A stretch of 30,099 nucleotides of DNA from positions 1 to 30,099 of the IMG/VR virus record IMGVR_UViG_3300006929_000068; one strand, 5' to 3'. The position numbers and the translations under genes are program-made. This document shows positions 2,740 to 21,685 of the stretch, in pieces (the stretch's first letter is position 1; each line of letters starts with the position of its first letter). This DNA is from a virus. The notes under the pieces are model-generated. The model was not told the origin of the DNA, searched no databases, and worked only from the letters and a program-made list of their open reading frames with translations.

Positions 2740-5700
2740 ATGGCTAGAAAGAATAAAAGAGCTAGATCAAACTATTTACGAAAAGATTATCGTAAAGGTG
2801 GTCGAGTTAAATTGCAATCAGGTGGTGGTTTTGCGCCTTCTCCGAAACAAAAGAAAATGTTTCAGAGGCGTTTAGATGCTTATCAGGAACAACTACAGGG
2901 AAATCCTACTGATATACAAAGAACAAGATTAGAAAAAGATATAGGAGAGATGCAAGAATTATTAGGTCACAATGCTGCTCCTAAGACTCCTGTAGCTGCT
3001 CCACCTCCTACTACTACGCAAACTTCTACAACTGCTGGTCCTTCTACTAAAGTTGCAGCTACTTCGGCTCAAAGAACAAATTTTCAGAATGGTTCGACTT
3101 CGACATCTTCTGGTAGTAATGCATTTGATTATTCACCAAATAGAGGTGGTGAAGACGAGGAAGGTACTGATACTGGTGAAAATAAAGATATTCACGGAGA
3201 GGATAAAAAACAAGAAGGGTATCAAAGACCAGTAAGAGGATCTAGACAGCCCGGAGATCTTTTTTCTCCTGAAACCGAAACAAAAATACAAGATGAAAGA
3301 GCAAGAGCAGAAGCAGTTGCAATGCAAACAGAAGGATACCAACCTCCACAAATAGGTGCTCCTGAAGCTGTAGGATATCAAAGAGATGCCCAAGGAAATT
3401 TAATAGATAAAGATGGTAAACCTATAGAATATGACGCAGAGGGTAAGCCTATAGGTGATCCTGTAAAACTAGCTGGTGCTCAGACTAAAGAAATGGGAGG
3501 TTTTGTACCAGAAGGATATACTGTAGCCCATCCAACTGGTAATCCTACAAGACAAGATCCCCCTGCGGGGAAGAAGTGGGTCTATGATAAAAGAGGACGA
3601 AAACTAGCAGTTGATGATGATCTAATATCTAAAGCCCAAGCAGGACAAGCAAAAAAAGTAGGAAGATATTATGCTAGTACACAAACTCGTCCTACTGATA
3701 TAGCTGATCCTGATGCTATAGACGCAGGAACATATCAAGCTGCTGGACCCGGATTTGACCCTAGAGATTGGACAGCAAAACAAGGTACTGTTACTCAAGG
3801 AAAAATTGAAAATATCCAAGGAGCAATAAGAAGGCCCGGAATTCCAGAAGGCTACAGTGAAACTCCTCCTGCTGGTGTAAACTATCCTGCTGTTGAACCG
3901 CCAGAAGGAATGAAATGGGCTTATGGACCCGGAGGAGATAGAATACCTATTTCAAAAACTGCGGGAACTCAGTTTGCTAGTGTAGATGAAATTACAGCAA
4001 CAGCAGCTAAAGCAAGTAAAATTGAGGATATTTTAGGTCCAGATACTGATTATTTAGTAAAAGAAGTAGAAGGAGATGATACTACAATTACTCCAACTTC
4101 TGATGCTGAAGCATCGGCTCGTCAACAAATTACAGGTATAAAAGCTTCAGGAACAGAAGCAGCAATAATAAATACTGTAGGATACGAAGCTGCCAAACAA
4201 AGAATTGTTACAGGTGAAGCTGCTCAACGCGGAGCTGCTACAATGCTTACTGAAGTTGGTGGTTTACCTCCTGATATTACTGCTGCTATTGTTGAAGATC
4301 CTGCTACTGTAACAGCTCAAGTAGATACAAATCCTGTGGAAGTTAATGCTGCTATTGCTGCGTTACCTACAGAAGCTTTAGTATCTTCACAGATGGACTC
4401 ACTCTTAGGTAGTATGGAAGGAGGTGAAGTACCTATATGGGCAAAACCTGCTGTCGATGCTATCAATCAAAGAATGGCAGAAAGAGGTCTTAGTGTTTCT
4501 ACTGTAGGCAGAGATGCACTTTTTAATTCTATTGTTCAAAGTGCAATGCCAATAGCTCAAAGTAATGCACAAGCACTTCAGGCTAGAGCAGCACAAAATC
4601 TCAGTAACGAACAACAAGCAAACTTACAAGAAGCTACACAAGAACAACAATTAAGATTAGCAAACTTGGCAAATCAGCAAACTGCTGCAAGTCAAACTGC
4701 ACAAATGTCTCAGCAGATGAAGACAATGCAAAGTCAGTTTAAACAAGATGCTGTGATGGCAAGTGCTGCTCAAGCTCAACAGTCTAGAATGCAAGATTTG
4801 CAAAATAGACAAGAAGCTTCGCGTGTCCAAGCTCAAATGGATCAACAAGCTGCTATGGCTAACTTGGGCAATGATCAGCAGTTAGTTATGGCAGAGCTTC
4901 AAATAGAAGCCGCCGTTGAAGGAGCAAATCAATCTGCTGAAAATCAAGAAAAAATGGCAGAGATGCAAATTGGCGCTGATTTCCTAGCTAAAAATGCTGG
5001 TTTTGCACAGCAAATGGAGCTTGCAAATTTAAGTAACGATCAGCAAATGAGGTTAGCTAACTTATCTTCTAAAAACTTATATCAAAGTGAAACTTTTAGT
5101 AATGCAGAAAAGATAGAACTTGCAAATCTTAATAAGACTATGCAATCCAATCTGACACAAGCACAAATATCTAGTCAGATGGGGATAGCTCAACTTAATG
5201 TTGATCAGCAAACAGCTATTCAAAATGCTACTATTCACGCTAATATGGATCTAACTAAGTTTAGTGATGCCCAGAAAGTAGAATTAGCTAATAGTAAATT
5301 CATGCAGTCTGTAGCTCTTGCAGACATGAATGCAGAACAACAAGCCATTATGCAAAATGCTACAGCTCAAGCATCAATGGATATTGCTAATTTAAATACA
5401 GCAGAAAGATTAGCAGTTACTAATGCTCAGAATTTTTTACAGATGGATATGGCTAATTTATCTAATAAGCAACAAGCTTTTATTTTAAAGAACCAGCAAA
5501 AGCAACAAAAAATACTTAGTACTCAGGCTGCTGAAAATGCTGCTAGACAATTTAATGCAACTAGTGAAAATCAAACAAATCAATTTATGACTAATATGGC
5601 AGTACAAGTAGATCAGTATAATAGTCAACAATTAAATGCACAAAAACAATTTAATGCACAACAAATCAATGCATCTAAAGCACAACAAAAACAACTCAAT

Positions 5701-6126
5701 GCAGATATATCGAAATCTAATGCAGCTATGGCTACAAGTATTAATCAATTTAATGCACAAAATGAATTTAATAGAGAACAATGGAATCAACAGAATGCAC
5801 AGGCTGTAGAACAATCTAATGTAGCTTGGAGAAGACAAGCAAATACAGCAAATACTGCTGCTGCTAATGCAGTCAATATGCAGAACGCACAAAATGCATT
5901 TAATATGTCTTCACAGGCTCAATCATTTTTATGGCAAGAAATGAGAGATCGTGCAAACTACGATTGGCAACAAGCTGAAAACTTTGAAAACAGAAAAACA
6001 CAGGTCATTTCTCAAGCTTTAGCAAACGAAGGTGATCTAGCTAAAGTATGGAAAACTGTAGAATCAGCTAATTGGACTAACTTATTAGGTAGTGTATTTG
6101 GCGGCACAAATACTAGTGATGATTAA
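2740..6126 (+). CDS. large Asn/Gln-rich virion or ejection protein with hendecad rod
   Basis: The product has 1,128 residues. Residues 1-24 are basic with a double-glycine motif (YRKGGRVK). Residues 25-75 hold a short helical region and 80-240 are Pro/Thr/Gln-rich and probably disordered. Residues 240-600 contain recurring short motifs (PEGYTVAHP, PEGYSETPP, PPAGKKWVYD, PPEGMKWAYGPGGDR), apparently degenerate modules. Residues 605-1099 are 45 consecutive 11-residue repeats without a phase break, rich in Gln, Asn, Ala and Met. The final 29 residues are non-repetitive. It heads the block of large genes and lies next to membrane-active proteins, so a virion-internal role in DNA ejection or an envelope-spanning fibre or tube is likely. 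I recognise no named family. Confidence 0.75.
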   Translation: MARKNKRARSNYLRKDYRKGGRVKLQSGGGFAPSPKQKKMFQRRLDAYQEQLQGNPTDIQRTRLEKDIGEMQELLGHNAAPKTPVAAPPPTTTQTSTTAGPSTKVAATSAQRTNFQNGSTSTSSGSNAFDYSPNRGGEDEEGTDTGENKDIHGEDKKQEGYQRPVRGSRQPGDLFSPETETKIQDERARAEAVAMQTEGYQPPQIGAPEAVGYQRDAQGNLIDKDGKPIEYDAEGKPIGDPVKLAGAQTKEMGGFVPEGYTVAHPTGNPTRQDPPAGKKWVYDKRGRKLAVDDDLISKAQAGQAKKVGRYYASTQTRPTDIADPDAIDAGTYQAAGPGFDPRDWTAKQGTVTQGKIENIQGAIRRPGIPEGYSETPPAGVNYPAVEPPEGMKWAYGPGGDRIPISKTAGTQFASVDEITATAAKASKIEDILGPDTDYLVKEVEGDDTTITPTSDAEASARQQITGIKASGTEAAIINTVGYEAAKQRIVTGEAAQRGAATMLTEVGGLPPDITAAIVEDPATVTAQVDTNPVEVNAAIAALPTEALVSSQMDSLLGSMEGGEVPIWAKPAVDAINQRMAERGLSVSTVGRDALFNSIVQSAMPIAQSNAQALQARAAQNLSNEQQANLQEATQEQQLRLANLANQQTAASQTAQMSQQMKTMQSQFKQDAVMASAAQAQQSRMQDLQNRQEASRVQAQMDQQAAMANLGNDQQLVMAELQIEAAVEGANQSAENQEKMAEMQIGADFLAKNAGFAQQMELANLSNDQQMRLANLSSKNLYQSETFSNAEKIELANLNKTMQSNLTQAQISSQMGIAQLNVDQQTAIQNATIHANMDLTKFSDAQKVELANSKFMQSVALADMNAEQQAIMQNATAQASMDIANLNTAERLAVTNAQNFLQMDMANLSNKQQAFILKNQQKQQKILSTQAAENAARQFNATSENQTNQFMTNMAVQVDQYNSQQLNAQKQFNAQQINASKAQQKQLNADISKSNAAMATSINQFNAQNEFNREQWNQQNAQAVEQSNVAWRRQANTANTAAANAVNMQNAQNAFNMSSQAQSFLWQEMRDRANYDWQQAENFENRKTQVISQALANEGDLAKVWKTVESANWTNLLGSVFGGTNTSDD
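4552..6036 (+). repeat. 45 in-frame 33-base units encoding hendecad protein repeats
   Basis: Residues 605-1099 of the host gene divide exactly into 45 units of 11 residues, for example MELANLSNDQQ, MRLANLSSKNL, IELANLNKTMQ, MDIANLNTAER, MDMANLSNKQQ and VDQYNSQQLNA. Position 1 is usually hydrophobic, position 4 is often Ala or aromatic, and position 5 is Asn in 24 of 45 units. Gln is common at positions 10 and 11. DNA identity between units is low, so the period is held by selection on the protein rather than by recent duplication. Confidence 0.85.
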
Positions 6127-6138
6127 AAGGAGATAATA

Positions 6139-7314
6139 ATGGGAAATCCGTTAAAAAAAATATTTAGTGGTGTAGCAAAAGTATTTAGAAAAATAGGTAG
6201 AGGTATAAAAAAGGTAGTTAAGAAAGTAGGAAAATTTGTAGGCAAATTAGGAATTGTCGGACAATTAGGTATGTTCATGCTAATGCCTCATATTGGTTCG
6301 TGGATATGGAAGGGGATGCTTAAAATGGCCCCCGGAATTTTAGGAACAGGGGCAGCAGCAGGTTCAGTAGCAGGCGCAACAGGTACAGCAGCGGCTAGTA
6401 CTGCTAGTGCGGCAGCAGCAATGGCTGCACCTGTAGGAACAGCAACAGCAGGTCAAGTGGCAACGTCCTTAGTAGCAGGATCTACTGGAGCAACAGCACA
6501 GGCAGGACTTACTGCCGCAAGCACAGCTACAGTAGCTAATGTAGGACAACTTGCTAGTGCATTATCTACGGGAAATATAGTGCAAAGAACAGCAGGACTT
6601 ATAATGAAAGGCGCACATTTGACAGGTAGAGCTTTTAACAGTGTTACTTCTATGATTGATCAAGGTGTAAGCTGGGTTAAAGATACAGGATCAAAAATAT
6701 TTGGGCGGGGAAATGAAGCTAAAATGGTTACAGATGAAGCAATAGGTAAGAATGTTTTTGGTGCTGATACAAAAGATTGGTATATGGAAAAGTATGGTGT
6801 TTCGCAACCTTCAAAACCTTTTCCTAATTTAACCAAACAAGCTATGGAGGATACTTTTGCAAATTATGATTTTACTCCACCCATTAAAAATACAATTCCA
6901 CCTACAATAGCACCGGGAGATCCTTTATACCAAGATAAACTAAATGCTGAGATTTTAAAAAAGGTTGGATCAGATGCACCAAAGAAAACTTTAGGTGAAA
7001 AAGCAGGTGATAAAATAATAGATGCTGGAAAGCAATTTGTATCGGGGGCATTTAAAGAAGGGATGAATCCTCCTGTTCCAGACGACGACGATTATGGAAC
7101 TTCTGTGTGGGTAGGTGATATGCAAACTCCAGATTTAACACAGGCAAATGAAAATGATTTTTTATTAGCTCAAAGAGGACATCCTTATGGAAATAATTCT
7201 TATGTGCAACACATGAATCAAATTTTTGGTGGGTATCAAGATGCCTATTTTGGTTGGTTAAATGGGATGGCACCAATTCCTAGTGCAAGAGCAAATCAAT
7301 ATTCAACTGTTTAA
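6139..7314 (+). CDS. putative membrane-active ejection protein with cationic amphipathic N-terminus
   Basis: A strong AAGGAGATA site precedes the ATG. The product has 391 residues. The first 42 hold 12 Lys/Arg and no acidic residue, arranged as an amphipathic helix (KVFRKIGRGIKKVVKKVGKF) like that of membrane-lytic peptides. Residues 42-66 are hydrophobic (IVGQLGMFMLMPHIGSWIW). Residues 70-150 are Ala/Gly/Thr-rich and could insert in or lie on a membrane. The C-terminal 200 residues are soluble and mixed, with acidic PDDDDYG near residue 315. By position after the rod protein and before the giant protein it plausibly plays the part of a T7 gp14-like ejection protein, although no sequence relation is visible. 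Confidence 0.65.
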   Translation: MGNPLKKIFSGVAKVFRKIGRGIKKVVKKVGKFVGKLGIVGQLGMFMLMPHIGSWIWKGMLKMAPGILGTGAAAGSVAGATGTAAASTASAAAAMAAPVGTATAGQVATSLVAGSTGATAQAGLTAASTATVANVGQLASALSTGNIVQRTAGLIMKGAHLTGRAFNSVTSMIDQGVSWVKDTGSKIFGRGNEAKMVTDEAIGKNVFGADTKDWYMEKYGVSQPSKPFPNLTKQAMEDTFANYDFTPPIKNTIPPTIAPGDPLYQDKLNAEILKKVGSDAPKKTLGEKAGDKIIDAGKQFVSGAFKEGMNPPVPDDDDYGTSVWVGDMQTPDLTQANENDFLLAQRGHPYGNNSYVQHMNQIFGGYQDAYFGWLNGMAPIPSARANQYSTV

Positions 7315-7331
7315 TACAATAGGATAAAACA

Positions 7332-7943
7332 ATGTCTGAAGTTGAAGAGAATTTAAAATATAATCAAGAAGGTTTAGAAACTTTAGCAAATAATGGTGCT
7401 CCTATTCCGGGGGAATCTTTAACAAATAATCCCGATTCACAATTACCTTTTGAACAAGCTCCACAATATACTGAAGTATCCCCTGCTGTAGATGCTATAT
7501 TTTTAGAGCTTACTGAGCCAGAAAATTATCATACACTAATGGATACCATTACTGAAGGTCTTCCTGTAGCGGATGTAGCTCAAATTCTTTTATATGATGG
7601 CTTCAGCAAAGGTATGTGGAATCCTGATCTAATGTTATTACTTATTGAACCGACTATATTTATGTTACTAGGTCTAGCAGAACAAGCAGGAATAGATGAT
7701 CCTATTATATATCGAGGTGAAGAAGATGAACCAGATGATCCTGAAGATCAATTAACTGGTTTAGAAAGAGCAATGGAAGTTGCTAAAGAAAGAATAGTTC
7801 CAAGAGCTGAGAAGGGTCAAATACCTAGAGAAATAGAACAGAAACTAGAAACCTTTGAGCCTCCAGAGCAGCCAAGTTTATTGGCTCCTTCTGGTACAGA
7901 ACAGGCCGCACCACCTAATTTACTAGATCAAGGAGTACAATAA
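7332..7943 (+). CDS. acidic putative virion protein
   Basis: The product has 203 residues and is strongly acidic. Residues 1-50 are polar and probably flexible (PIPGESLTNNPDS). Residues 50-135 look like a compact helical domain, with a hydrophobic stretch WNPDLMLLLIEPTIFMLL that is more likely a buried core than a true membrane segment. The end is Pro/Glu-rich. It shares one base with the next gene (TAATG). I do not recognise a characterised family. Its place inside the ejection block suggests a small structural partner of its large neighbours. Confidence 0.65.
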   Translation: MSEVEENLKYNQEGLETLANNGAPIPGESLTNNPDSQLPFEQAPQYTEVSPAVDAIFLELTEPENYHTLMDTITEGLPVADVAQILLYDGFSKGMWNPDLMLLLIEPTIFMLLGLAEQAGIDDPIIYRGEEDEPDDPEDQLTGLERAMEVAKERIVPRAEKGQIPREIEQKLETFEPPEQPSLLAPSGTEQAAPPNLLDQGVQ

Positions 7944-9598
7944 TGGCACAGAGTATTGAAGATTTTGCTGCTCCTCTTTTAGCTAAAGCAAAAAAAGCTA
8001 ATAAGAAAATGGAAAAGAGAGTTAGAAATCAAAATTATGCTTTATTAGGTGTAAAACTAGCAAATCAGGCTTTACGATCAAGAGCAATGAATAGAGCGCA
8101 AAGTTGGTACGCTGGAGCACAGCCTATTTTACGACAAGCAAGAGATAACGCACAGGCTGGTTTTAACTTTTGGTCTAATCATAATGAAATGTTGGGAAAA
8201 CATGATTCTACAGATTGGAAAGTGGCAAAAGCACAACAACTATTTAATACTGCATATGCAGAACAAGGAAAACATTTAACTGAGGAAGAAAAGAAAAAAG
8301 CTTTTGCTGCGTATATGCCTACTATTGAAGATCAATTAAATGCTTATGATAAACAAATGAAGCTTCATGGTGAGTTTAAAGGTGCTACAACTGAAAAAGA
8401 AAAAGAAATATTAAGAAAGAGATATTACGGTAACATTGATACTATGTTGACTAACGAAACTGCTCGAATTAAAAATGATAATAGTATATTCAGTGCTGTA
8501 ACGGGCGCATTAGGTATTACTGGAAGAGATAGGCTAGATGATATTGATGCAATAGCTGGAATTCCACAAACAGGATTAAGTCCAAAGGAACAAGAGATTT
8601 CAGATTTCTTTGCGAGTGCAGAGCTTAGAGAAAAAGAAGATTTAGGATTAACAGAAGCTTCTAAAAGATCTGATGGTACGTTTAATTGGAATACTTTTGC
8701 AACTACAAATTTGGCTACACATGAAGATGTGTATGGTAAATTCCAAGATACAAGAGATAAATATATAGAAAATATTAGTGAGGGAACAGCAGGTATAGAA
8801 GCAATTGAAACGGATCTTCAACCTTACGGCGGTATAGTTGTAACATTAGACGATCAACATGAAAATAAAGTTGATATAGCATTTCATCAAATTGTAGACA
8901 TGTTACCAGATACCGGACCTAAGGGTGCTGATACTGCTCAAACGCAATTTATAGATGATGTAACTACCTTGTCTTCTATTTTACAATATAAATACCAAAG
9001 GGCAGCAGAAGCTCTAGCAAAAGCATCAGGTAAATCAGCTCCTATATTTATACCACCCCCACAACACTTTATGAAAGCAGCTACAGAAATGATTGTAAAT
9101 GACGGAAAATTTACATTTGAACGAAATAAAGTGATGCCAAATAAACTGACATATGAAAGCTACGATATAGCTAATCTTACACGAATAGCTAATGAAGAAT
9201 GGAGTTCTTTGCTTAGTGAAAAGACATCAAGAGAAATATTTAAAGACATAGACATTGATGAAGGTAATCAAGAAGAATTAGACAGAGTAATAAGAGAGCA
9301 AGCTCAAGCAGCAGCAGATGCTTCTTTGTCTGTCAATAACAAAATAATGGCAAATATACCTGTTAATCATCTTATACAAGCACTGGAAGAAGCTAAAAAA
9401 GAATCTGATTACGATAAGACAGGAACAGAAAATATAAGAGATCAGTGGATTAAAGCAAGAAAAGCGGCAGGTACTTGGACTCAAGAGGATGAAGATAAAA
9501 TAATGGCAATACAGCTTTCAGCTACTACAGTACCTACACTTCCATCTACGAGTGGTACTTTTGTACCACCTAGATCGGGACCGGGAAGACCTAGATAA
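7943..9598 (+). CDS. helical putative internal virion protein
   Basis: The ATG overlaps the previous TAA by one base, with GGAG about ten bases upstream. The product has 551 residues. Residues 10-35 are very basic (KAKKANKKMEKRVRNQ), and the rest is mostly helical and charged, with no membrane segment and no catalytic motif that I can identify. It ends in a Pro/Thr/Ser tail (PTLPSTSGTFVPPRSGPG). It is coupled by a one-base overlap to the giant gene. Size and order recall T7 gp15, which sits before gp16; this is an analogy of context, not homology I can show. Confidence 0.65.
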   Translation: MAQSIEDFAAPLLAKAKKANKKMEKRVRNQNYALLGVKLANQALRSRAMNRAQSWYAGAQPILRQARDNAQAGFNFWSNHNEMLGKHDSTDWKVAKAQQLFNTAYAEQGKHLTEEEKKKAFAAYMPTIEDQLNAYDKQMKLHGEFKGATTEKEKEILRKRYYGNIDTMLTNETARIKNDNSIFSAVTGALGITGRDRLDDIDAIAGIPQTGLSPKEQEISDFFASAELREKEDLGLTEASKRSDGTFNWNTFATTNLATHEDVYGKFQDTRDKYIENISEGTAGIEAIETDLQPYGGIVVTLDDQHENKVDIAFHQIVDMLPDTGPKGADTAQTQFIDDVTTLSSILQYKYQRAAEALAKASGKSAPIFIPPPQHFMKAATEMIVNDGKFTFERNKVMPNKLTYESYDIANLTRIANEEWSSLLSEKTSREIFKDIDIDEGNQEELDRVIREQAQAAADASLSVNNKIMANIPVNHLIQALEEAKKESDYDKTGTENIRDQWIKARKAAGTWTQEDEDKIMAIQLSATTVPTLPSTSGTFVPPRSGPGRPR

Positions 9599-12500
9599 TG
9601 ATAACTTATTCAGAATTACTTGATCTTTCTAATAAAATAGAGGAAGAAGAGGAAGAAGAACCTATTCAGACTTCTATCTTACCGCCTCCACAATCAAAAC
9701 AATCTGTTGAAGAAGAAGCCCAAGAAGAATCTGATTTAGGTGATCTTAATCAGTTCATGGCAAACTTTTATGCTAGGAAGAAACTTCAAAGGCAAGCAGA
9801 CGGAACCTTTATTCCTAAAACTAAAACAAAGTCTATATCTGTTGAAAATATTCAAGAGGAATTTAGTTTAGATGATCTTGAAGATCCTTCTCATTTTTTA
9901 CACGATGAGTGGACTCAAAGATCAAATAGATTTTTAGAAGGTCTTAGTAAGTTACAGCAAGATTCTGAAGTTACAGGAAGTAAAGATCTTTACGAATACT
10001 TCAGAGATGAAAAATGGAGTACTACCCGGACAATTCAAAGAGCTTTTCAAAATGGAAGCTGGACTCCTGAAATGATGGAGGACTACAGATTCTTACGTCA
10101 GGTTTTTGATAAAGCTAATTTAGGCGGTGCTGGTCAAATTGTAGAAGCTACAAAAGATATTGGTATCGATTTAATAGCTGATCCTATGAATCTTGTAACA
10201 GCTATAGCATCCATGTTTACTATGGGTGCAGGAGGTGTGGCTGTACAAGCTGGAGCCAGAGGTCTTGCAGCAATGGCGGGTAGACATGCTTTATCAAGAC
10301 ATATAAACACTAAGGCAGCACAAATAGCAGTGAGTCCTACATGGCAAGGTACTCTTCAAGGAATGAGCATAGGCTTAACTGAAGGTGCTTTAGATGGAAG
10401 TTTAATTAATGCTGCCACTCAAATAAGTGAAAAGCAAACTGGATTGAGACAGGGAGATTTTGATTGGGGTGAATTAGGAAAGGCTACAGGAGCTGGTGCG
10501 CTTTTTGGGGTAACATTAGGAGGAACCGTAGCTAGTGTAGCTAATGCTATAGCTAGACGATCTTATGCAAGAGCTATGGGCAATTCAGATATTAGTCTTC
10601 CACAACAAGTATTAGATGAAAAAACACAGAAACTTAGAAATACTACGCCAGAAGATATACGAAGATTTAGAAGAGCATCTCATCGTTATCATAAAATGAT
10701 TTCAGCTTTGCCTACATTTGGTAAAGCAACTACACGTTATTTAGAAGTTGCACAGTCTGCTTCTCCAAAGCTTAAAGAGTTTATTAAACTAATACGATAT
10801 GATGCTTTTAAAGGAGTTTTAGGTAAAGACCAAATAGATACGGTTGTTCCTAATTTTAATATACGAAGAGAAATGAGAGAGGGTAAACTTAGGGTTACTG
10901 CTGATAAATTCTTATCAAAAATAATACACAAAGGACAAGGAGCATTAGGTAAGCATAGTTTTTATAATATAAAAATGGACCCTGTTGCCAATAAACAATT
11001 ATTCAGTTTACTTACTGGTGATCATAAATTTAATTTAAAGACTTTATATAAACGTTATTACAATATTAATCCTCAGACAGCCAAAACAACAATGGATGGT
11101 GAGTTAAAAAATAATTGGAAAAATATACGCAAAGTTAAATTACATGGTGAGGAAGTTTCTCCTGAGGTTATTGGTGCAGCTTTTCATGTACGAAGAACTT
11201 TAGACAAAGCACACACAGATGCTTCTTTTATCGATGTTATTGGTACAGATGGTAAAGTCTCAGGAACAACAAGTTTATTTAATTACTCTAAAAAATTCAT
11301 AAAAAATTATTTGCCTCATGTATGGATATACGATGCATTAGAACCAAACAAAGAAGCCTTAGTAGATTTATTACTTAATACAAAACATACTAATTTATTA
11401 GAAGGACAATTTCCTACAGTTAAAGGTAGAATCGCTACTAAAGAAATAGATCTTAAAGTGATCGATGGGGAATTAAAGAAAAAGAATGCTGCTGGAGATT
11501 ATATAGAACTTACAGCCCAAGAAACAGATCAAATTAAAATTGTTTCTTCTTTCGATGAAGAAAGTAAACAGTGGACAAAAATTCAAAATGAAGAATTAGA
11601 ATTTATTTTAACTCAGCAAGGGGATTACGACCAAGTTACTTTTAAAAATTTATTTAAGGATGAAGGGGTATCAAGCTTTAGAGAACTAGCTAGAAAGAAA
11701 AATCCTGATACTGATGAAAATACTATAGAAACTATAGCCAGAAGATTAAAAGGTGAAGCATTAGTTCAAAATATGATCGATGGTAAGTATGATCTTCATA
11801 AAGGACTAAAAGATGTAACTTCTGATCGTACTGCATTTACTCAACACAGAGCTTTTAATGAACTTAATTCTACTGACCTATTTAATTTAGGTGTTATAGA
11901 GACAGATGTTCCTACTATATTCAGTGACTATATGCATAAGATATCTGCTTCTATAGAAAGAACTTCTTTATTTGGAAATACTAAAGGGGAGTTTTCTGAA
12001 CGATGGCAGATCCCTATTCAAAAAGAATTAATGGACGCAAGAGCTGATAATCCAGAATTAACTCTAGATATAATCCAAGAGATTACAGGGAAGGGTGCTG
12101 GCATGGATGCCGATTCTGGAATCATGCAGCTCTATGGCCGGGTTACTGGAATAGAGGGCGCTTATATTAAAAATCCATTTGCTAGAGGAGCATTAGATAC
12201 TACAAAAGTAGCTATGCGACTTGCGTATCTTCCATTAGCTGTAGTGTCAAGTTTTAGTGAGCCTTTAATTGCTTTATCTAGAGCAGACTTACCAGATACT
12301 AAAGATTTTATAAAAGAGTTTAGTAAAGCAGCAGGAAGACAGTTTAGTAAAAGTATGAAAAGAGCCATACGAGCTGGAAAAGTAGCTGGAGGAAAAGAGG
12401 TTCGTGGTGCTCCAGACATGAGCAATGAAGATTGGATGGACTTTTATCAGGCTGGTATCGCTGCTGAACAAGCAATGGAGGATAGACTTCAAGGGCTTTA

Positions 12501-15500
12501 TGGAGAATACCATACAAAAGCTGGGCAATATATATCTCAACAATTTTTCAAATATAATCTTTTGATACCGTGGACACAAGCAGTTCAGATGGGTGCTTAT
12601 AATTTCTCAAATGCTAGGGTTACTAGAATACTTGGTGATCTTAATAGAGGAACGAATTTTATGCATCAGCCTTTAACTAAAAAGGCTATTCAAAGAAGGT
12701 ATGAAGAACTAGAAGAAATTGGAATAAATCCAAAAGAAGCTCTTGAAGAATACAATCAGTATGTCATTCCTGAAATAAATACAGAAACCATTACTCCTAA
12801 AGGAAGAGCATGGGCTAGGTTCGATAGAAAAGAAAGAAAAATTTATGTGAATGAATCTGAATTACAAAAACGATATAAAAATAAAGCTTGGACTAAACCA
12901 AGAGTAAAAGGTGTAGAGGCTTTACCTGAAGATCAGTTTAAATCTTTAGATGAATTTAGACGATTTATTTATTCGCATGAAAGACATCATGCAATGTTAC
13001 CAAAAAGAAAAAAGGAAACAAAAGCTGAATATGAAAATAGAATAAATCAAGCAGCTTTAAATAATATGGATCTTGGAAGATCTATACAAGGTAATTTTAG
13101 ACAATCAGATTGGAAACAAAGTGATTATTATGATCACTCCATTACTCCTGCTTCATCTTTATTTGCCAGAGAAATTATTTTGAATCCTTCTGTAGCAGAA
13201 GCTAATACTCCTTTATGGTATTCCCATCCTGCCGCACAACTATTTGTTCAGTTTATGGGTTATCCAACAGCCTTTAATAATATTGTGTTAAAAGGAATGG
13301 CTAGGAATGTTGTTAAGAACCCTATGATTAATGGATCAAAAGTTTTAGCTGCAACAACTTTAATGACCGGAACAGCTATGCTGGGTAATATGATTCGTTC
13401 TCATGGAGAAAGTCTAGACTTAGATCCTATAGATCAAGTAGCAGAAGGAATCAGACGTTGGGGTGGCTTTGGTCCTTTTGAAATAGCGCACAAATATATA
13501 CAAGGAAAAAAATATGGTAGGTCATGGCTTGGTCCAGCTATAAAAGCTCCACTAGGACCATTACCTTCAGTTGTTGTTGATTCCATAGCATATGGGCAAA
13601 CTCCCTCACAAACTTTAGGAAAAATGGCTCCCGGTTATGGTCTTCTTTCTCCTGAGGCAAAAAGAGAATGGAGTAAATATTTAGGAGCTAAAGGACATAG
13701 AGATTCTTTTTCAGTAAGAGCAGGACTTAGAAGACCTCATAAGAAAAAAGTAAGGGATGGTCTAGCTACCGGAGGAGTTGTCAGTATAGATAATGCAACT
13801 CCAGAGCCTGATGAGCGTGTTGATCGTATGACAGGTCTACCTTATAACATACAAGCTGGTGCAGCTTTTATCGATGCAGAAGAACGTAGAGGCTTTGCTG
13901 AAGGCAGTCTTTTAGAAGATGACGATCCTCAATCCTTCTTACCGACTCCTCCAGTAGAGGGCGAATCAGATATGCCTGAATGGAGACAACCTACGACACC
14001 AATTAAAGCTATTGATGTAATGATGGAGGATGTAGATGAACCCATAACTCCTAAACAAAAGGCCCGACAAAAAGTTAAAGAAAACGATATGTATCGGGTC
14101 TTAACTAGAGACGAAGAAGAGTACGCTACATTTGATAGAACAGAGTTGGTGCTGTACTCAGAAGAGGATTTGAGTCCATTGAATTTGAAAATGGATCAGA
14201 CCTTCTATACTTCACTTCCTGAAGATTCTAGAAAGGCTAAGTTAGAAGCCTTTCGAGATTCCTCAACATTAGGTTTGAATGTCTCAGAAAATCCTGTGAG
14301 TGGAAATGTTCGATTGGCTGGTAAGATTCAGTTTAAGAATGTATTGAGGCTCAATGTAGACGAGGTTACTCCTGATACCATAGCGGATCAGTTATCTATA
14401 ATAAGAACACAGAATGTATTAGCAGAGCCTTTCTTAGCAAAGGCTGTTATAAGGACTGTGAAGAGTGATTTAAAAACCAGAGACATGGTTTTAGAAATGG
14501 ACGATCAGCTTACTCAAGATAAAAGAGATCTCATAGAACAAAGTAAAAGTTTTATTCTACGGCAAGGATTATTAAAACTAGGCTTCGATGCTATTAAATA
14601 CAACAATGGCTATGTGCTTTTAAGAGAGCACCAGTTCCTACCCACGGAGATTGAAGAAGAGCGTGATGCCCGTAGTCATGGCGGTCTACTAAGTACACTA
14701 AATAAAAGAAGGGCTAGATATAATGAGGGTGGCTCAACGGATGATGAGTTGGTTTTTGGCACTGATTTCACTAAAAAAGAATTAAATAGACGCAATACTT
14801 TATTTGGCATGGCCCGTAAGGAAGCGCTTAGAAGATGGAAAGCTGGTGTAGAGGCTGGCGATATTAATCCGAGAAAACATAGCCAGAGTGGATTTATGCG
14901 TACTCAACGGATGGTATTACAGCGTGAATTATTTACAGATTATGATGACTATCCTGAAGGTGAATATGTTTTCAGAAGAGATAGAAAAGCGGAAGGTGGC
15001 AAAATAAAAGAAGCTCTTAAATACGCAGGTACAAGATCATTAGAAACACTGGCAGACATATTTTATGACATGGGAGATGAAGAACTAAGAGCGCATGAAA
15101 AAGAAGCTGCCCGTCTACTTGATAAAGGTATTGATCGTGGAATAGTCAATGAAAGAGAACGAGTTACTATAGAAAACGACAGAGTTTTAAATGCAGGTGA
15201 TGCCTTTAATGCTATTAATCATATGCTGCTTTCGGCCAAACATCATCGTCTTGATAAAAAGATAGCATTACAAGCTAAAGAGATGGGACAATGGATCTTG
15301 GATGATCCGCAATCCTCTGAAATAGATTGGAGAAATAATAAACTTGGCTTTGAGATTGGCGAACAAAGCGGAGGAGATATTAATAAAATTAATGAGGGTA
15401 TTCTTCAGGCTATGAAAGAAGGAAGACAAACTAATAGAATAGACCATGAAAGTAAGATGGATAGATTCCGTTCTTTATTTTCAAATGGGGGAGATCTTGA

Positions 15501-16089
15501 CTTAGATATAGAGGAAGCTCTTGCAAAAGAAGAAGCTAGATTGGACGGAGAACGAAATGACAATCCAAACCTCAGTAAGAATAGAGGATTAAGAAATAGA
15601 AACTTTGGTAATATAATTGGAGGGTCGTGGAGAGATAACCGCATAAAGCATAATGAAAGAGCCATAAGATTTCACGGTGTATCAGGAGTAGACGAGGCTG
15701 GAGCAGGACCAGAAAACCCGGAAGTCTATCTTCAATTTGATAAGTGGTTGTGGGGTCTGAGAGCTATGGCCCATACACTTAGAAAAGAAAACTACAGGAA
15801 TAAATCTTTAGAAAAAATAACGAACACTTATTCTAGGACAGATCAAGATACTTACGCGACAGATGTTTCTGAATTCACTGATGGTGAATTAGCAGTTAAA
15901 GATACTATTGATACTCACGATGATAATAAATTAAGAATGTTAATGAAAGCTATGATAACGAAAGAAGTAGGACATGATATGTCTCCTAATAATTTAATGA
16001 TAAATGAAGCAATACGATTATCCAAAGAAGATAAAGAAGACTCAGAGTTTTCTCAAAGACGGAATATAAATAATGCCTCCAGCAACTAA
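9598..16089 (+). CDS. giant internal virion/ejection protein with HExxH motif
   Basis: The product has 2,163 residues. Residues 1-60 are acidic with a Glu run. Hydrophobic or amphipathic segments lie near 189-230 (GIDLIADPMNLVTAIASMF), 300-320, 873-890 (MRLAYLPLAVVSSFSEPLI) and 1249-1265. Residues 1127-1131 read HERHH, an HExxH zinc-peptidase signature, with Glu1140, Glu1144 and Glu1146 shortly after as possible third ligands. The part after about 1390 differs: acidic, Pro-rich linkers, five double-glycine motifs after basic clusters, and a 1450-1670 stretch ending in LGFDAIKYNNGYVLL. No lytic transglycosylase motif is seen. Length and position suggest a DNA-ejection protein with the role of T7 gp16 (1,318 residues) but far larger. 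Confidence 0.7.
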   Translation: MITYSELLDLSNKIEEEEEEEPIQTSILPPPQSKQSVEEEAQEESDLGDLNQFMANFYARKKLQRQADGTFIPKTKTKSISVENIQEEFSLDDLEDPSHFLHDEWTQRSNRFLEGLSKLQQDSEVTGSKDLYEYFRDEKWSTTRTIQRAFQNGSWTPEMMEDYRFLRQVFDKANLGGAGQIVEATKDIGIDLIADPMNLVTAIASMFTMGAGGVAVQAGARGLAAMAGRHALSRHINTKAAQIAVSPTWQGTLQGMSIGLTEGALDGSLINAATQISEKQTGLRQGDFDWGELGKATGAGALFGVTLGGTVASVANAIARRSYARAMGNSDISLPQQVLDEKTQKLRNTTPEDIRRFRRASHRYHKMISALPTFGKATTRYLEVAQSASPKLKEFIKLIRYDAFKGVLGKDQIDTVVPNFNIRREMREGKLRVTADKFLSKIIHKGQGALGKHSFYNIKMDPVANKQLFSLLTGDHKFNLKTLYKRYYNINPQTAKTTMDGELKNNWKNIRKVKLHGEEVSPEVIGAAFHVRRTLDKAHTDASFIDVIGTDGKVSGTTSLFNYSKKFIKNYLPHVWIYDALEPNKEALVDLLLNTKHTNLLEGQFPTVKGRIATKEIDLKVIDGELKKKNAAGDYIELTAQETDQIKIVSSFDEESKQWTKIQNEELEFILTQQGDYDQVTFKNLFKDEGVSSFRELARKKNPDTDENTIETIARRLKGEALVQNMIDGKYDLHKGLKDVTSDRTAFTQHRAFNELNSTDLFNLGVIETDVPTIFSDYMHKISASIERTSLFGNTKGEFSERWQIPIQKELMDARADNPELTLDIIQEITGKGAGMDADSGIMQLYGRVTGIEGAYIKNPFARGALDTTKVAMRLAYLPLAVVSSFSEPLIALSRADLPDTKDFIKEFSKAAGRQFSKSMKRAIRAGKVAGGKEVRGAPDMSNEDWMDFYQAGIAAEQAMEDRLQGLYGEYHTKAGQYISQQFFKYNLLIPWTQAVQMGAYNFSNARVTRILGDLNRGTNFMHQPLTKKAIQRRYEELEEIGINPKEALEEYNQYVIPEINTETITPKGRAWARFDRKERKIYVNESELQKRYKNKAWTKPRVKGVEALPEDQFKSLDEFRRFIYSHERHHAMLPKRKKETKAEYENRINQAALNNMDLGRSIQGNFRQSDWKQSDYYDHSITPASSLFAREIILNPSVAEANTPLWYSHPAAQLFVQFMGYPTAFNNIVLKGMARNVVKNPMINGSKVLAATTLMTGTAMLGNMIRSHGESLDLDPIDQVAEGIRRWGGFGPFEIAHKYIQGKKYGRSWLGPAIKAPLGPLPSVVVDSIAYGQTPSQTLGKMAPGYGLLSPEAKREWSKYLGAKGHRDSFSVRAGLRRPHKKKVRDGLATGGVVSIDNATPEPDERVDRMTGLPYNIQAGAAFIDAEERRGFAEGSLLEDDDPQSFLPTPPVEGESDMPEWRQPTTPIKAIDVMMEDVDEPITPKQKARQKVKENDMYRVLTRDEEEYATFDRTELVLYSEEDLSPLNLKMDQTFYTSLPEDSRKAKLEAFRDSSTLGLNVSENPVSGNVRLAGKIQFKNVLRLNVDEVTPDTIADQLSIIRTQNVLAEPFLAKAVIRTVKSDLKTRDMVLEMDDQLTQDKRDLIEQSKSFILRQGLLKLGFDAIKYNNGYVLLREHQFLPTEIEEERDARSHGGLLSTLNKRRARYNEGGSTDDELVFGTDFTKKELNRRNTLFGMARKEALRRWKAGVEAGDINPRKHSQSGFMRTQRMVLQRELFTDYDDYPEGEYVFRRDRKAEGGKIKEALKYAGTRSLETLADIFYDMGDEELRAHEKEAARLLDKGIDRGIVNERERVTIENDRVLNAGDAFNAINHMLLSAKHHRLDKKIALQAKEMGQWILDDPQSSEIDWRNNKLGFEIGEQSGGDINKINEGILQAMKEGRQTNRIDHESKMDRFRSLFSNGGDLDLDIEEALAKEEARLDGERNDNPNLSKNRGLRNRNFGNIIGGSWRDNRIKHNERAIRFHGVSGVDEAGAGPENPEVYLQFDKWLWGLRAMAHTLRKENYRNKSLEKITNTYSRTDQDTYATDVSEFTDGELAVKDTIDTHDDNKLRMLMKAMITKEVGHDMSPNNLMINEAIRLSKEDKEDSEFSQRRNINNASSN

Positions 16090-17666: not shown

Positions 17667-17885
17667 TCATTTCCGGGCATTCAAGGCCAGTTCAATCTTA
17701 TCGTGGATCTGATCAAGTTCTGTCTTAGCTTCTAGTAAAGTACTTCTTAATACATTAAAGTCTTTATTATTTAAATACTTTTTTAATTTTTTAATATCTA
17801 CCGATATTCGTTCAGTAATCAAATTACCTTTAGCATCAAATAAAATTTTATAACCTAATATAGTTGCTTCGCTTTTAGGTATCAT
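17667..17885 (-). CDS. small protein at the end of the replication operon
   Basis: The product has 72 residues and starts at an ATGA overlap with the nrdB stop. The first third looks like a small beta-rich segment (ILGYKILFDAKGNLITER), and the rest is a charged helix (EAKTELDQIHDKIELAL). Function unknown. Coupling to nrdB suggests co-expression with nucleotide metabolism. Confidence 0.55.
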   Translation of the reverse strand: MIPKSEATILGYKILFDAKGNLITERISVDIKKLKKYLNNKDFNVLRSTLLEAKTELDQIHDKIELALNARK

Positions 17886-18853
17886 TCTACTTCCCTAAAT
17901 ACAAGTTTACCAGAGTCGCCCCTCAATCCAGCTTTCATATATGAGGTAGCTCTTCCTTCAAAGAAGTTCTGATGTTCAATTCCCATCACCTCATCCAGCC
18001 ATCCTAGAGGGTTATCTCTCTGATCAAAATTAGTTTTTAATCCTAGTTGTAATAGTCTTCGATCTGCAATATATCTATTGTAAGCATACATATCTTCTTT
18101 AGTTAATCCTTGTATGTCTCCCATAGAAAATACTAGATCAAGAAACTTATCTTCTAGTTTCACCATTTCTCTACAGATTTGATAGAGTTCCTTTTTAAAA
18201 TCATCTGTCCAAATCTCTATGTTCTCTTGAATAAATTCTTTGAATAGTCTAGTCATGGCTTCTACATGCAGAGACTCATCTCGTATAGAGTACGTTACAA
18301 TCTGTCCCATACCCTTCATCTTCCCGAATCTAGGAAAGTTTAATAGTATTGCAAAGCTACTAAACAACTGGAGTCCTTCGGTGAATCCCGAATAGACTGC
18401 TAAAGTTTTAGCGATACTCTGCTTGTTGCTTAGTGTGGGCTTGAAGTCTTTAATATAATCGTGCTTATCAAGCATCTCTTCATACTCAGAGAATGCTTTA
18501 TATTCTAATTCAGGCATACCTACTGTATCCAACAGCAAGCTATATGCATGTTGATGTATAGATTCTATGTTTGCAAAGCTGCTCATCATCATACGAGATT
18601 CTGGTTTCTTGAATACCCGCATGTATTTATCGATATACCCGGCTCCTACATCTACATCAGACTGTGTAAATAATCGAAAGATCTGAACTAATAGGTTACG
18701 TTCAGTATCAGATAGATCCTGCCAGTCTTTAATATCTGTGTGTAAAGGAACAGACTCTGGCATCCAGTGCATTTGATTTTGTAATACATAATAATCAAAC
18801 ATCCACGGATGATCGAAAGGCTTATAGTAATCTCTAGTATTTAGTAAACTCAT
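17882..18853 (-). CDS. nrdB: ribonucleotide reductase class Ia small subunit
   Basis: The protein (323 residues) generates the tyrosyl radical that NrdA needs to reduce ribonucleotides to deoxyribonucleotides. The metal ligands of the ferritin-like fold are all present: Asp66 (TQSD), Glu97 and His100 (ESIH), Glu159 (FTEG), Glu193 and His196 (RDESLH). The radical tyrosine is kept at Tyr104 (ESIHQHAY). No ATP-cone is fused. Both ends overlap neighbouring genes by four bases (ATGA). It would supply dNTPs for phage replication in the cytoplasm, together with nrdA two genes upstream. Confidence 0.93.
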   Translation of the reverse strand: MSLLNTRDYYKPFDHPWMFDYYVLQNQMHWMPESVPLHTDIKDWQDLSDTERNLLVQIFRLFTQSDVDVGAGYIDKYMRVFKKPESRMMMSSFANIESIHQHAYSLLLDTVGMPELEYKAFSEYEEMLDKHDYIKDFKPTLSNKQSIAKTLAVYSGFTEGLQLFSSFAILLNFPRFGKMKGMGQIVTYSIRDESLHVEAMTRLFKEFIQENIEIWTDDFKKELYQICREMVKLEDKFLDLVFSMGDIQGLTKEDMYAYNRYIADRRLLQLGLKTNFDQRDNPLGWLDEVMGIEHQNFFEGRATSYMKAGLRGDSGKLVFREVE

Positions 18854-19548
18854 TCATCGTTCTCCACAGGAAAGCAGTTAAAGTTTGCAGCCACAGTTCT
18901 ACGTTCTCCTTCGCCTCTAAAGGGATAAACTGTATGCTGTAGCCAAGAAGGGAAGAAATAGATCTTTCCCACTTTAGGTTTGAATATCGTAGCGTATGTA
19001 GGTTTTAAGATCTCCTTATCTCTTGTCGAGTTTCTACCATAAATAAATTCTAAGAACCCATCTGAACATCCCGAAGCATTAAAATAACTGAGCTTTCCTT
19101 CGATTGATGGATCAGGTAATTTAGAAATCTGTTCTGGAACTTTTGTCCATGTGGTACAGGAAACTCCCATAGCTGTCTTAGTCCCATGATCGTGTATTGG
19201 ATTGTAGTCACCCGCATAGCTATGTACTGACCACAGGTGATCTATCTCTACTTGTCTATTGCCAGCCATTGTTTGCCCTGTAAAACCTAAAAAGTCTGAG
19301 ACATATTTAGCTGCAATACTGCAAAGAGCTACGTTAACTTCATCCAACTCCTCACATGTATGATCCATGCTCAGTTGTTCGCCACCGTGTATTTGACCAA
19401 CTAATGTATCGGCAGCAGTTTTACGATCTTTCTTTTTGAGTAAGTTATCTAAATGCTTATTTAGAGTATTGACCATAGCTTTAGGAAATTCTACTTCCAT
19501 TAAAAGCACAGCAGGTAAGGGCAACATTTTATAGGATATATCTTCCAT
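18850..19548 (-). CDS. 2OG-Fe(II) oxygenase family protein
   Basis: I chose the ATG four bases after the previous stop (232 residues); a TTG eight codons upstream is possible. The double-stranded beta-helix signature is clear: NPIHDHG gives iron ligands His119 and His121 (HxH type), and PSWLQHTVYPF gives the distal His205, with Arg216/217 as 2-oxoglutarate contacts. The order NPIHDHG, GVSCTTW, KIYFFPSWLQH matches the putative 2OG-Fe(II) oxygenase family (PF13759/TIGR02466-like) common in marine phages. The substrate is unknown. It sits between nrdA and nrdB and overlaps nrdB by four bases. Confidence 0.8.
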   Translation of the reverse strand: MEDISYKMLPLPAVLLMEVEFPKAMVNTLNKHLDNLLKKKDRKTAADTLVGQIHGGEQLSMDHTCEELDEVNVALCSIAAKYVSDFLGFTGQTMAGNRQVEIDHLWSVHSYAGDYNPIHDHGTKTAMGVSCTTWTKVPEQISKLPDPSIEGKLSYFNASGCSDGFLEFIYGRNSTRDKEILKPTYATIFKPKVGKIYFFPSWLQHTVYPFRGEGERRTVAANFNCFPVENDE

Positions 19549-19552
19549 CTTA

Positions 19553-19774
19553 CTAAGGATTTTCCCTGACAATAAAATTATTTTTTAAGCACTCTAGCTT
19601 GTCTTCGACTTCAGCTAATTGACCTATTAAACCATTGATAGATTCCATAAGATGAGGATGCTCCGCAACACCCACACTATTTGTCAGATAGTTATCTATA
19701 TCTATTTTCATTTCTTCAATCTCTGCTTCATACTTTAACTTCAGGGCATGTATTTTCATATTGCGAGTAGACAT
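19553..19774 (-). CDS. small conserved phage protein, unknown function
   Basis: The product has 73 residues, with AAGGAGAA before the ATG. It has two helical segments (LKLKYEAEIEEMKIDIDNYL and a later GQLAEVEDKLECLK) joined by a turn with GVAEHPH. From memory, similar small helical-hairpin proteins with a GVGEHP-like turn lie near reductase and replication genes in several marine phages. No function is known to me. It follows nrdA by 15 bases. Confidence 0.65.
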   Translation of the reverse strand: MSTRNMKIHALKLKYEAEIEEMKIDIDNYLTNSVGVAEHPHLMESINGLIGQLAEVEDKLECLKNNFIVRENP

Positions 19775-19789
19775 TTGTTCTCCTTTTAA

Positions 19790-21685
19790 TTAGCCTTCAC
19801 AGGCTAGACATTCTAATTCCTCTAATTTTATTCTAGGTACTTTGACGGTAATGTTCTCAGTTGTCCGTGCAGCTTCTGTTCTAAAATAATAAAGAGATTT
19901 TAGTTTGTTTGCACCGTACCAATGGACATCATTAACATACTGCATATAATCATCGTGTGTTTCCTGATCTTCAGTAGCCTTGGGAAGTGTAAAGAATAAG
20001 TTGACGCTCTGACTCTGACAAATAAACTCCTGTCTTTTGAGTGCGTGTTCAACTACCCAAATCTGATTGATCTCAGTTGCTGTTTTAAATACATTCTTCT
20101 CGTGATCAGAAAGAACATCTAAGTGCTGCACTGATCCATTATGTTCTAATATGTCAGCCCATAAATCTTTTATCTTCTCAGGTGATAACTTTTTCTTTCT
20201 AAAAAGATCTTCAAGAAATCTGTTTTTAACCTGATAATTTCCTGTGAGGGTTTTATGTGTAAAGATGTTAGCACGAAAAGGTTCAATAGAAGGAGAAGTC
20301 CCGCCACAAATAATACTGCTACTAGCATTAGGAGCAACAGCGAGTAAATGAGAATGACGATACCCCGTCCCGTACACATCAGGAGCTTCCCCACGCTCAT
20401 CAGCCAATCGTTGAGAAACTTTACGCGACTCAGATTTGATATGCTTAAAACATTTGTGATTAAAACTCGTAGCATAGATGCTTTCGAAATCAATGTCGTT
20501 ACGTTGGAGATAGGCGTGAAACCCCATTGCACCCAAGCCAATCGACCTTTCTCGATAAGCTGAGTATGCAGCCTTTGTAAACCCTTCCTGTCCTTCCCTA
20601 ATATAGTTTTTAAACCTTTTAAAATTTGCACTGTACTCTCCAAGTTGAGTAGTATCTATAGCATTCTCGATAAAATGTTGTAGTATATTATCGAGCATAG
20701 TTACCAAATCACTAATGAACAGCGGATCTTTTGACCACTCATCGAAGTGTTCTAGATTAACACTAGATAAACAACAAACCGCAGTTCGTTCTTCGTTTGT
20801 AGGTAACGTGATTTCAGAACAAAGATTGCTTTGTCTTATTTTTAAACCTAAATCTTTCTGCTGCTTGGGTAAGTACTCATTACATAAATCGATGTTGACC
20901 ATGTAAGGCTCACCAGTTTCTGCTCTTGCATATATAATCTGCCACCAAAGATCTCTGGCATTAATTATTTTCACAGCTTCATTAGTTTTAGGATCAACCA
21001 ATCGCCAATCTAAATTATCTTTTACAGCATTTAGAAACTCATTGGTTATTGTAATCCCATTGTGAAGATTCAAACATTTCCTATTTATATCCCCACCAGA
21101 CTCTTTACGCATGTTGATAAATTCTTCAATCTCCGGGTGACTAATATCCATGTAAGCAGCGTAGCTTCCACGCCTAGTTGTACCCTGATTGAAGGCAAGC
21201 ATCTGAGAATCCACTACATGCATGAAAGGAATGCTACCAGTAGAGCGACTACCGTGAGTAGTAGGAATGCCATTACTCCTAACGTCTCCCCAATATCCAC
21301 CAATACCTCCACCTGAACTTGCCAACCATATGTTCTCGTCATAGTGATCAGATAACCCGCCACGGCTGTCAGGTACATAATTGAGGAAGCAGCTAATAGG
21401 AAGACCACGGCTGGTTCCCCCGTTAGAAAGTATAGGAGTGCTATACATGAACCAACAGTCGGAACTGTAGTTATAAAGCCTTTGAGCCAGTTCATAATCT
21501 GTTACTCCTTTGAACGTCGCTCCAAAAACAGACGCTCTCGCAAATGCTTCTTGGGCATGTGTTTCTCCTTCCCAAAAATAACGATCCTTTAAACTGTTCA
21601 AACTAAAATCGTTTAAGTTGTTATCTTTATTGTAATTTATTTTTATACCTAAGTATTCTTTGGGTCCAATTTTATCCTCTACCAT
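19790..21685 (-). CDS. nrdA: ribonucleotide reductase class I large subunit, no ATP-cone
   Basis: The product has 631 residues. It reduces ribonucleoside diphosphates with NrdB. The key residues are Cys99 (LPISC) and Cys304 (AVCCLSSVNL) as the redox pair, Asn287-Cys289-Glu291 (SNLCSE) at the active site, Tyr599-Tyr600 (LYYFRT) in the radical path, and Cys626/Cys629 (CLAC) at the C-terminus for reduction by thioredoxin or glutaredoxin. APNASSSI is also typical. The protein begins close to the catalytic core, so the N-terminal ATP-cone of E. coli NrdA (761 residues) is absent. The start is ATG three bases after a double stop of the DUF3310 gene. Confidence 0.93.
   Translation of the reverse strand: MVEDKIGPKEYLGIKINYNKDNNLNDFSLNSLKDRYFWEGETHAQEAFARASVFGATFKGVTDYELAQRLYNYSSDCWFMYSTPILSNGGTSRGLPISCFLNYVPDSRGGLSDHYDENIWLASSGGGIGGYWGDVRSNGIPTTHGSRSTGSIPFMHVVDSQMLAFNQGTTRRGSYAAYMDISHPEIEEFINMRKESGGDINRKCLNLHNGITITNEFLNAVKDNLDWRLVDPKTNEAVKIINARDLWWQIIYARAETGEPYMVNIDLCNEYLPKQQKDLGLKIRQSNLCSEITLPTNEERTAVCCLSSVNLEHFDEWSKDPLFISDLVTMLDNILQHFIENAIDTTQLGEYSANFKRFKNYIREGQEGFTKAAYSAYRERSIGLGAMGFHAYLQRNDIDFESIYATSFNHKCFKHIKSESRKVSQRLADERGEAPDVYGTGYRHSHLLAVAPNASSSIICGGTSPSIEPFRANIFTHKTLTGNYQVKNRFLEDLFRKKKLSPEKIKDLWADILEHNGSVQHLDVLSDHEKNVFKTATEINQIWVVEHALKRQEFICQSQSVNLFFTLPKATEDQETHDDYMQYVNDVHWYGANKLKSLYYFRTEAARTTENITVKVPRIKLEELECLACEG

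Follow-up and report, generated by a model that had tools for sequence, protein, structure and literature searches.

The 1,128-residue protein encoded at 2740 to 6126 on the + strand of a 30,099-base IMG/VR record (the window, meaning the whole stretch of DNA analyzed) includes a long series of 11-residue units, and the length of this array varies among relatives in quanta of 22 residues, rarely 11. Our preferred reading, to which we assign a probability of about 45%, is of a modular virion protein from HMO-2011-like podoviruses that most likely serves as an ejection (internal virion) protein and has a helical repeat of paired hendecads spanning 22 residues. By its proteins and gene order, the source record is a fragment of an HMO-2011-like marine podovirus, and this group is among the most abundant viruses of the ocean. 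Structural genes occupy the left side of the record on the + strand, and genes for ribonucleotide reductase, an endonuclease, an exonuclease, DNA polymerase A, and a primase/helicase lie on the right side on the − strand. The ribonucleotide reductase is a two-subunit enzyme (17882 to 21685, − strand, with a 2OG-Fe(II) oxygenase gene in between), whereas HMO-2011 itself encodes a cobalamin-dependent one. Searches of Pfam and PHROGs with the repeat protein returned no match. Its relatives extend to 27 annotated phages, including HMO-2011, HTVC103P/104P/115P, CRP-1, Vibrio phage CHOED, Aeromonas phage MQM1, and Pseudoalteromonas phage Slicky01, and every one of these entries is labeled a hypothetical protein or is misnamed.

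A preliminary description had placed 45 unbroken units of 11 residues at residues 605 to 1099 (4552 to 6036); these coordinates are exact, and the units keep one phase throughout. Residue identity at lags of 11, 22, 33, 44, and 55 is 0.188, 0.195, 0.182, 0.206, and 0.184, compared with a maximum of 0.163 from 1,000 shuffles over all lags from 2 to 39. The Asn noted at position 5 of 24 units is present as counted, and the remaining column preferences are real but had been worded a little generously: position 1 is Met, Ile, Val, or Leu in 22 of the 45 units and position 4 is Ala, Phe, or Gln in 29, both given as "mostly," and 12 units end in Gln-Gln, given as "often." The array is 31.5% Asn plus Gln and has no proline, a residue found at only 7 of 37,653 positions family-wide. 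Two repeat types, which the preliminary description did not mention, follow one another. Units of the form MDLANLSNxQQ (type I) fill approximately units 1 to 30 (residues 605 to 934; 4552 to 5541, delimited by similarity and length variation) and pair roughly as MDLANLNxEQQ / xAIQNATIxxQ, and units of the form xxQFNAxxxNA (type II) fill approximately units 31 to 45 (residues 935 to 1099; 5542 to 6036, delimited by unit profiles), which are the best-conserved part across the superfamily and end in WRRQANT..WQEMRD. Ahead of the array, residues 1 to 403 (2740 to 3948) are of low complexity and poorly conserved, homologue matches mostly starting at 380 to 440; the corresponding N-termini in close relatives had no reliable Pfam match. 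Homologue alignments define residues 404 to 604 (3949 to 4551) as a conserved domain with the consensus ..RPAVDAVNQxMAxRGLSxSTxGRDALxNAIIQSALPxAQ.., which is helical in the AF2 model at low confidence. Comparison with relatives sets off a C-terminal tail at residues 1100 to 1128 (6037 to 6123), where CRP-3, CRP-738, and CRP-235 carry a Peptidase_S74 domain instead. In the HMO-2011 group (e.g., HMO-2011 gp25, locus L083, 14960 to 17080) there is a C-terminal extension (CWVAREVYGEGDPRWYAFRIWLKYKAPKW...) that is absent from the 1,128-residue protein and looks like a separate domain.

Homologues were gathered by five protein-guided scans of IMG/VR together with named phages that were fetched, and their lengths were compared without alignment through three ungapped anchors per protein: the end of the N-domain, the QAAENAARQFNA boundary, and the WRRQANT end. 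The expectation that these lengths differ by multiples of 11 was strongly borne out. Among 205 distinct proteins none is off phase: the first anchor interval comes in 13 lengths between 92 and 620 residues and the second in 5 lengths, and within each interval all lengths are congruent modulo 11. Off-phase gaps seen for phiM6 and CRP-3 in a first MAFFT alignment were discarded, both proteins being in phase by best anchor match, with the first anchor below threshold. Relative to the 1,128-residue protein, the first interval differs by −24, −20, −17, −16, −10, −6, −1, 4, 10, 14, 20, or 24 units of 11 residues, and by −22 in the S74 subgroup, where the first anchor is below threshold. Eleven of these 13 differences, the S74 subgroup included, are even, that is, multiples of 22 residues (p ~0.011); the odd ones belong to L067 (−1) and to CRP-9/CRP-207 (−17). 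Total unit number runs from about 21 (HTVC033P) to about 67 (L275). The proteins HMO-2011 gp25, HTVC115P gp47, and CHOED gp13, all annotated as hypothetical, are genuine homologues that share the repeat and the gene cassette but have 27, 35, and 22 units rather than 45. Unit number tracks phage lineage, not host: the SAR11 phages HTVC115P and HTVC103P each have 35 units and HTVC033P has 21, Roseobacter phages have 26 to 27 with CRP-3 at 21, and Vibrio and Aeromonas phages have 22 to 23. Homologues also occur in bacterial MAG contigs (L281 to L284; Campylobacteraceae, Maricaulis, Sphingobacteriales), and these contigs probably come from phages and were binned together with the MAG. At the DNA level the tandem array is invisible, TRF giving trivial pairs only, and the best direct copies are 65 to 91% alike over 22 to 63 nt. 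DNA slippage was considered as the origin of the quantized lengths and rejected; because near-identical DNA repeats are now absent, selection on phase or old duplications are more likely.

Evolution seems to handle the array mostly in hendecad pairs, a 22-residue superperiod that the preliminary description had not noted. Unit-profile similarity is higher at even lags than at neighboring odd lags up to lag 8, and generally beyond, and within units 10 to 29 the two halves are unlike, M-D-L-A-N-L-N/S-x-E-Q-Q alternating with A-x-L/I-Q/A-N-A-Q/T-x-x-Q-Q/S. In mean-field DCA, each of the three ungapped orthologue groups has i+3/i+4 peaks of alpha-helical type, and the group of the 1,128-residue protein also has a lag-22 signal ~3.5 to 4 sd above background. 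The lag-22 coupling of 0.21 compares with 0.05 ± 0.10 in a column-shuffled null, and since this null is wide we take the coupling as supporting rather than decisive. In an AF2 monomer prediction from a 58-sequence alignment, residues 704 to 934 (4849 to 5541) form a compact array of short helices (pLDDT 86.3, pTM 0.71, 79% helix; four of the five models at pLDDT 79.5 to 86.3 and one at 65.7), with helix breaks spaced ~22 residues apart across the second half of this segment, mainly on the MDLANLN half-unit. Foldseek found no relative of this model in the PDB at E 0.001, PDB profile searches with family alignments gave nothing, VIA scores reached Z of at most 6.3, below chance level for helical repeats, and BFVD models of three homologues agreed with it in part (TM 0.36 to 0.47). 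Given the missing solved-structure match and the partial agreement with BFVD, we place more confidence in the predicted local pattern of breaks than in the global fold. The weak best Foldseek matches, designed helical repeat proteins (DHR8, 5cwf) and natural alpha-solenoids, are likewise arrays of short helices, but the present repeat is only 22 residues long and the TM of ~0.2 is not significant. Prediction of the 725-residue C-terminal part was of low confidence (pLDDT 54) and rendered the type II units as long helices; its Foldseek and VIA matches were dismissed as generic long helices only; among them, a DEV ejection protein scored Z 4.7, which does not exceed background.

What the repeat protein does is best approached through its gene neighborhood, which suggests a virion or ejection protein. 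Four + strand genes follow it. The first (6139 to 7314; 391 residues; family in 73 loci) has a weak PHROGs tape-measure match (6e-4) and a conserved Lys-rich, cationic amphipathic N-terminus that leads into a hydrophobic stretch, a sequence pattern that makes it possible that the protein is membrane-active, like membrane-active peptides; in HMO-2011 this gene is not directly downstream of the repeat gene. The next encodes 203 residues (7332 to 7943) and resembles T7 gene 14 in position and size; of the 91 loci examined, 85 have it, among them every one of the 11 named phages fetched. A fast-evolving gene of 551 codons (7943 to 9598) and one of 2,163 codons (9598 to 16089) likewise correspond in position and size to T7 genes 15 and 16, and the giant product matches endolysin and virion structural PHROGs (phrog_7348, 1e-28; phrog_6958, 2e-12; phrog_873, 2e-5). 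Near its C-terminus, inside the phrog_873 match, NRGLRNRNFGNI (15580 to 15615; residue 1995) resembles the RGxRNNNPGNI motif of phage-associated peptidoglycan hydrolases. The same protein contains HERHH (12976 to 12990; residue 1127), an HExxH metallopeptidase-like motif that may be due to chance, since a crude motif scan of relatives found four large ORFs with a similar QF[ML]GY region and HExxH in none. Every named relative examined has the repeat gene, sometimes one or two accessory genes, a homologue of the 203-residue protein, a gene for 300 to 930 residues, and a giant gene, so that the order repeat protein, (391), 203, 551, large extends from Vibrio, Aeromonas, and Rhizobium phages to those of SAR11, SAR116, and Roseobacter. 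T7 genes 14, 15, and 16 (196, 747, and 1,318 residues) show the same small-medium-giant layout, and gp15-like proteins are usually identified by synteny (PMC8954989). The repeat gene sits in an equivalent arrangement beside putative ejection genes of small, medium, and giant (muralytic) type. Along with the order of genes, the cassette shares with T7 gp14/gp15/gp16 and P22 gp7/gp20/gp16 an endolysin-family match in the giant protein and poor sequence conservation. In contrast to those systems, sequence homology is not detectable (hhalign of the repeat protein to T7 gp14 gave probability 0, and T7 gp13 to gp16 sequences did not match the cassette profiles), and a further and larger component, the repeat protein, is encoded upstream of the gp14-sized gene. 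A literature search found virion proteomics for none of the relatives. On the strength of synteny and domain company, ejection is the best-supported function, and a role as either an ejection or a cell-envelope virion protein is probable.

How the array is built was initially described differently, as a single unbroken hendecad helix of 495 residues and 74 nm. Its alpha-helical character holds, given i+3/i+4 covariation, the near absence of proline, and an all-helical model, but the single rod is not supported: although the slip-free 11-residue period of a continuous (11/3) coiled coil is present, the predicted hydrophobicity peak at 3.67 is absent (power 0.2 to 0.3, against a null 95% level of 4.5), AF2 predicts repeated helix breaks within residues 704 to 934, and both indels and similarity run in quanta of 22. 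A long rod is thus less likely than a paired-hendecad helical repeat. Hydrophobicity peaks strongly at 2.75 and 2.2 instead; a beta-solenoid, raised by these peaks and the Asn columns, was rejected against the i+3/i+4 covariation, composition, and all-helical models. A rival that we regard as unlikely sets long straight helices side by side in an amide-lined tube like that of the phiX174 DNA pilot protein H. When the residues are placed on an 11/3 wheel, charged ones (65 to 98 degrees) and amides (229 to 262 degrees) occupy opposed faces with two hydrophobic seams near 130 to 196 and 327 to 0 degrees between them. The spectra show a power of 16 for charge at 3.67 and of 30 for hydrophobicity at 2.2, where the second harmonic of 11/3 falls. 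One reading of these spectra is a bifacial helix as expected in a phiX174 H-like barrel; another is a regularly broken structure. The opposed faces would be compatible with an H-type tube, H having Gln/Asn-rich hendecads with charged and amide faces similarly opposed and Asn, Gln, or Arg at 18 of 23 inward positions (PMC7354561), and multiples of 11 would preserve helical phase. The type II units are modeled as long helices, at low confidence. However, a tube leaves the missing 3.67 and the 2.75 hydrophobic peaks unexplained and conflicts with helix breaks modeled with good confidence in residues 704 to 934. The indel quantum is mostly 22 where 11 would equally suit a continuous helix, and at 0.15 nm per residue the helix would measure 74 nm, more than the outer capsid of the relative MQM1 (diameter 70.6 nm). 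Protein H itself has 3 hendecads plus heptads, compared with 21 to 67 units here, shows no homology, and differs from the modeled 704 to 934 segment in the latter's breaks about every 22 residues. It is more improbable still that the array is a compositionally biased, partly disordered Q/N-rich linker on which AF2 is over-confident; the amide content, the low-confidence 725-residue model, and the global disagreement of the BFVD models would fit, but strict phase, invariant columns, i+3/i+4 couplings, and scarce proline favor an ordered, helical structure.

The paired-hendecad repeat could also belong to a protein on the outside of the virion. Relatives carry the C-terminal S74 domains mentioned above, the CRP-235 homologue (L102, 2426 to 4960) adds an N-terminal LysM, and one relative has DUF4214, all of which points to the virion or cell envelope and is compatible with an external appendage or fiber, trimerized in some relatives by an S74-type chaperone. 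S74 is typical of trimeric fibers, upstream genes are annotated as tail fibers, and the N-terminus is variable. Nevertheless, Pfam finds no S74 in the 1,128-residue protein, and most relatives also lack it; the gene keeps company with the putative ejection cassette, not with fiber genes; and the protein is conserved at its C-terminus and variable at its N-terminus, the reverse of usual tail fibers. We consider an appendage about as doubtful as the tube. A tape-like ruler, one of the roles first proposed, would be set by envelope thickness or tail length and could draw on quantized lengths that vary about threefold. Unlike tail tape-measure proteins, which set the length of a long tail, this family belongs to short-tailed podoviruses (the MQM1 tail is 9.2 nm) in which unit number does not track the host, and because phages of the single host group SAR11 differ in unit number, a ruler is very improbable.

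We favor an ejection protein with a paired-hendecad repeat, and propose that the structural unit would be a hendecad pair, comprising a helix of ~14 residues and a turn on MDLANLN. The array would grow and shrink by whole 22-residue repeats, occasionally by 11, and in this way inter-repeat packing would be kept. The repeat protein would be packaged together with the 203-, 551-, and 2,163-residue proteins and would enter the envelope ahead of the DNA, where the amide-rich helical array, perhaps as an oligomer, would form or scaffold part of a trans-envelope path, with the lysozyme-like giant protein opening peptidoglycan and the cationic 391-residue protein possibly acting on a membrane. More tentatively, a previously undescribed 22-residue, two-hendecad fold, changed only by whole repeats, might serve the HMO-2011 group as an element of adjustable length in a trans-envelope DNA path, a proposal we think less likely than not. 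Very clean length quantization opens the repeat structure of this family, which has no Pfam or PHROGs match, to direct testing, and the range of 21 to 67 units provides a natural series for structure-function study in cultured phages such as CHOED, MQM1, Slicky01, HMO-2011, CRP-1, and HTVC115P.
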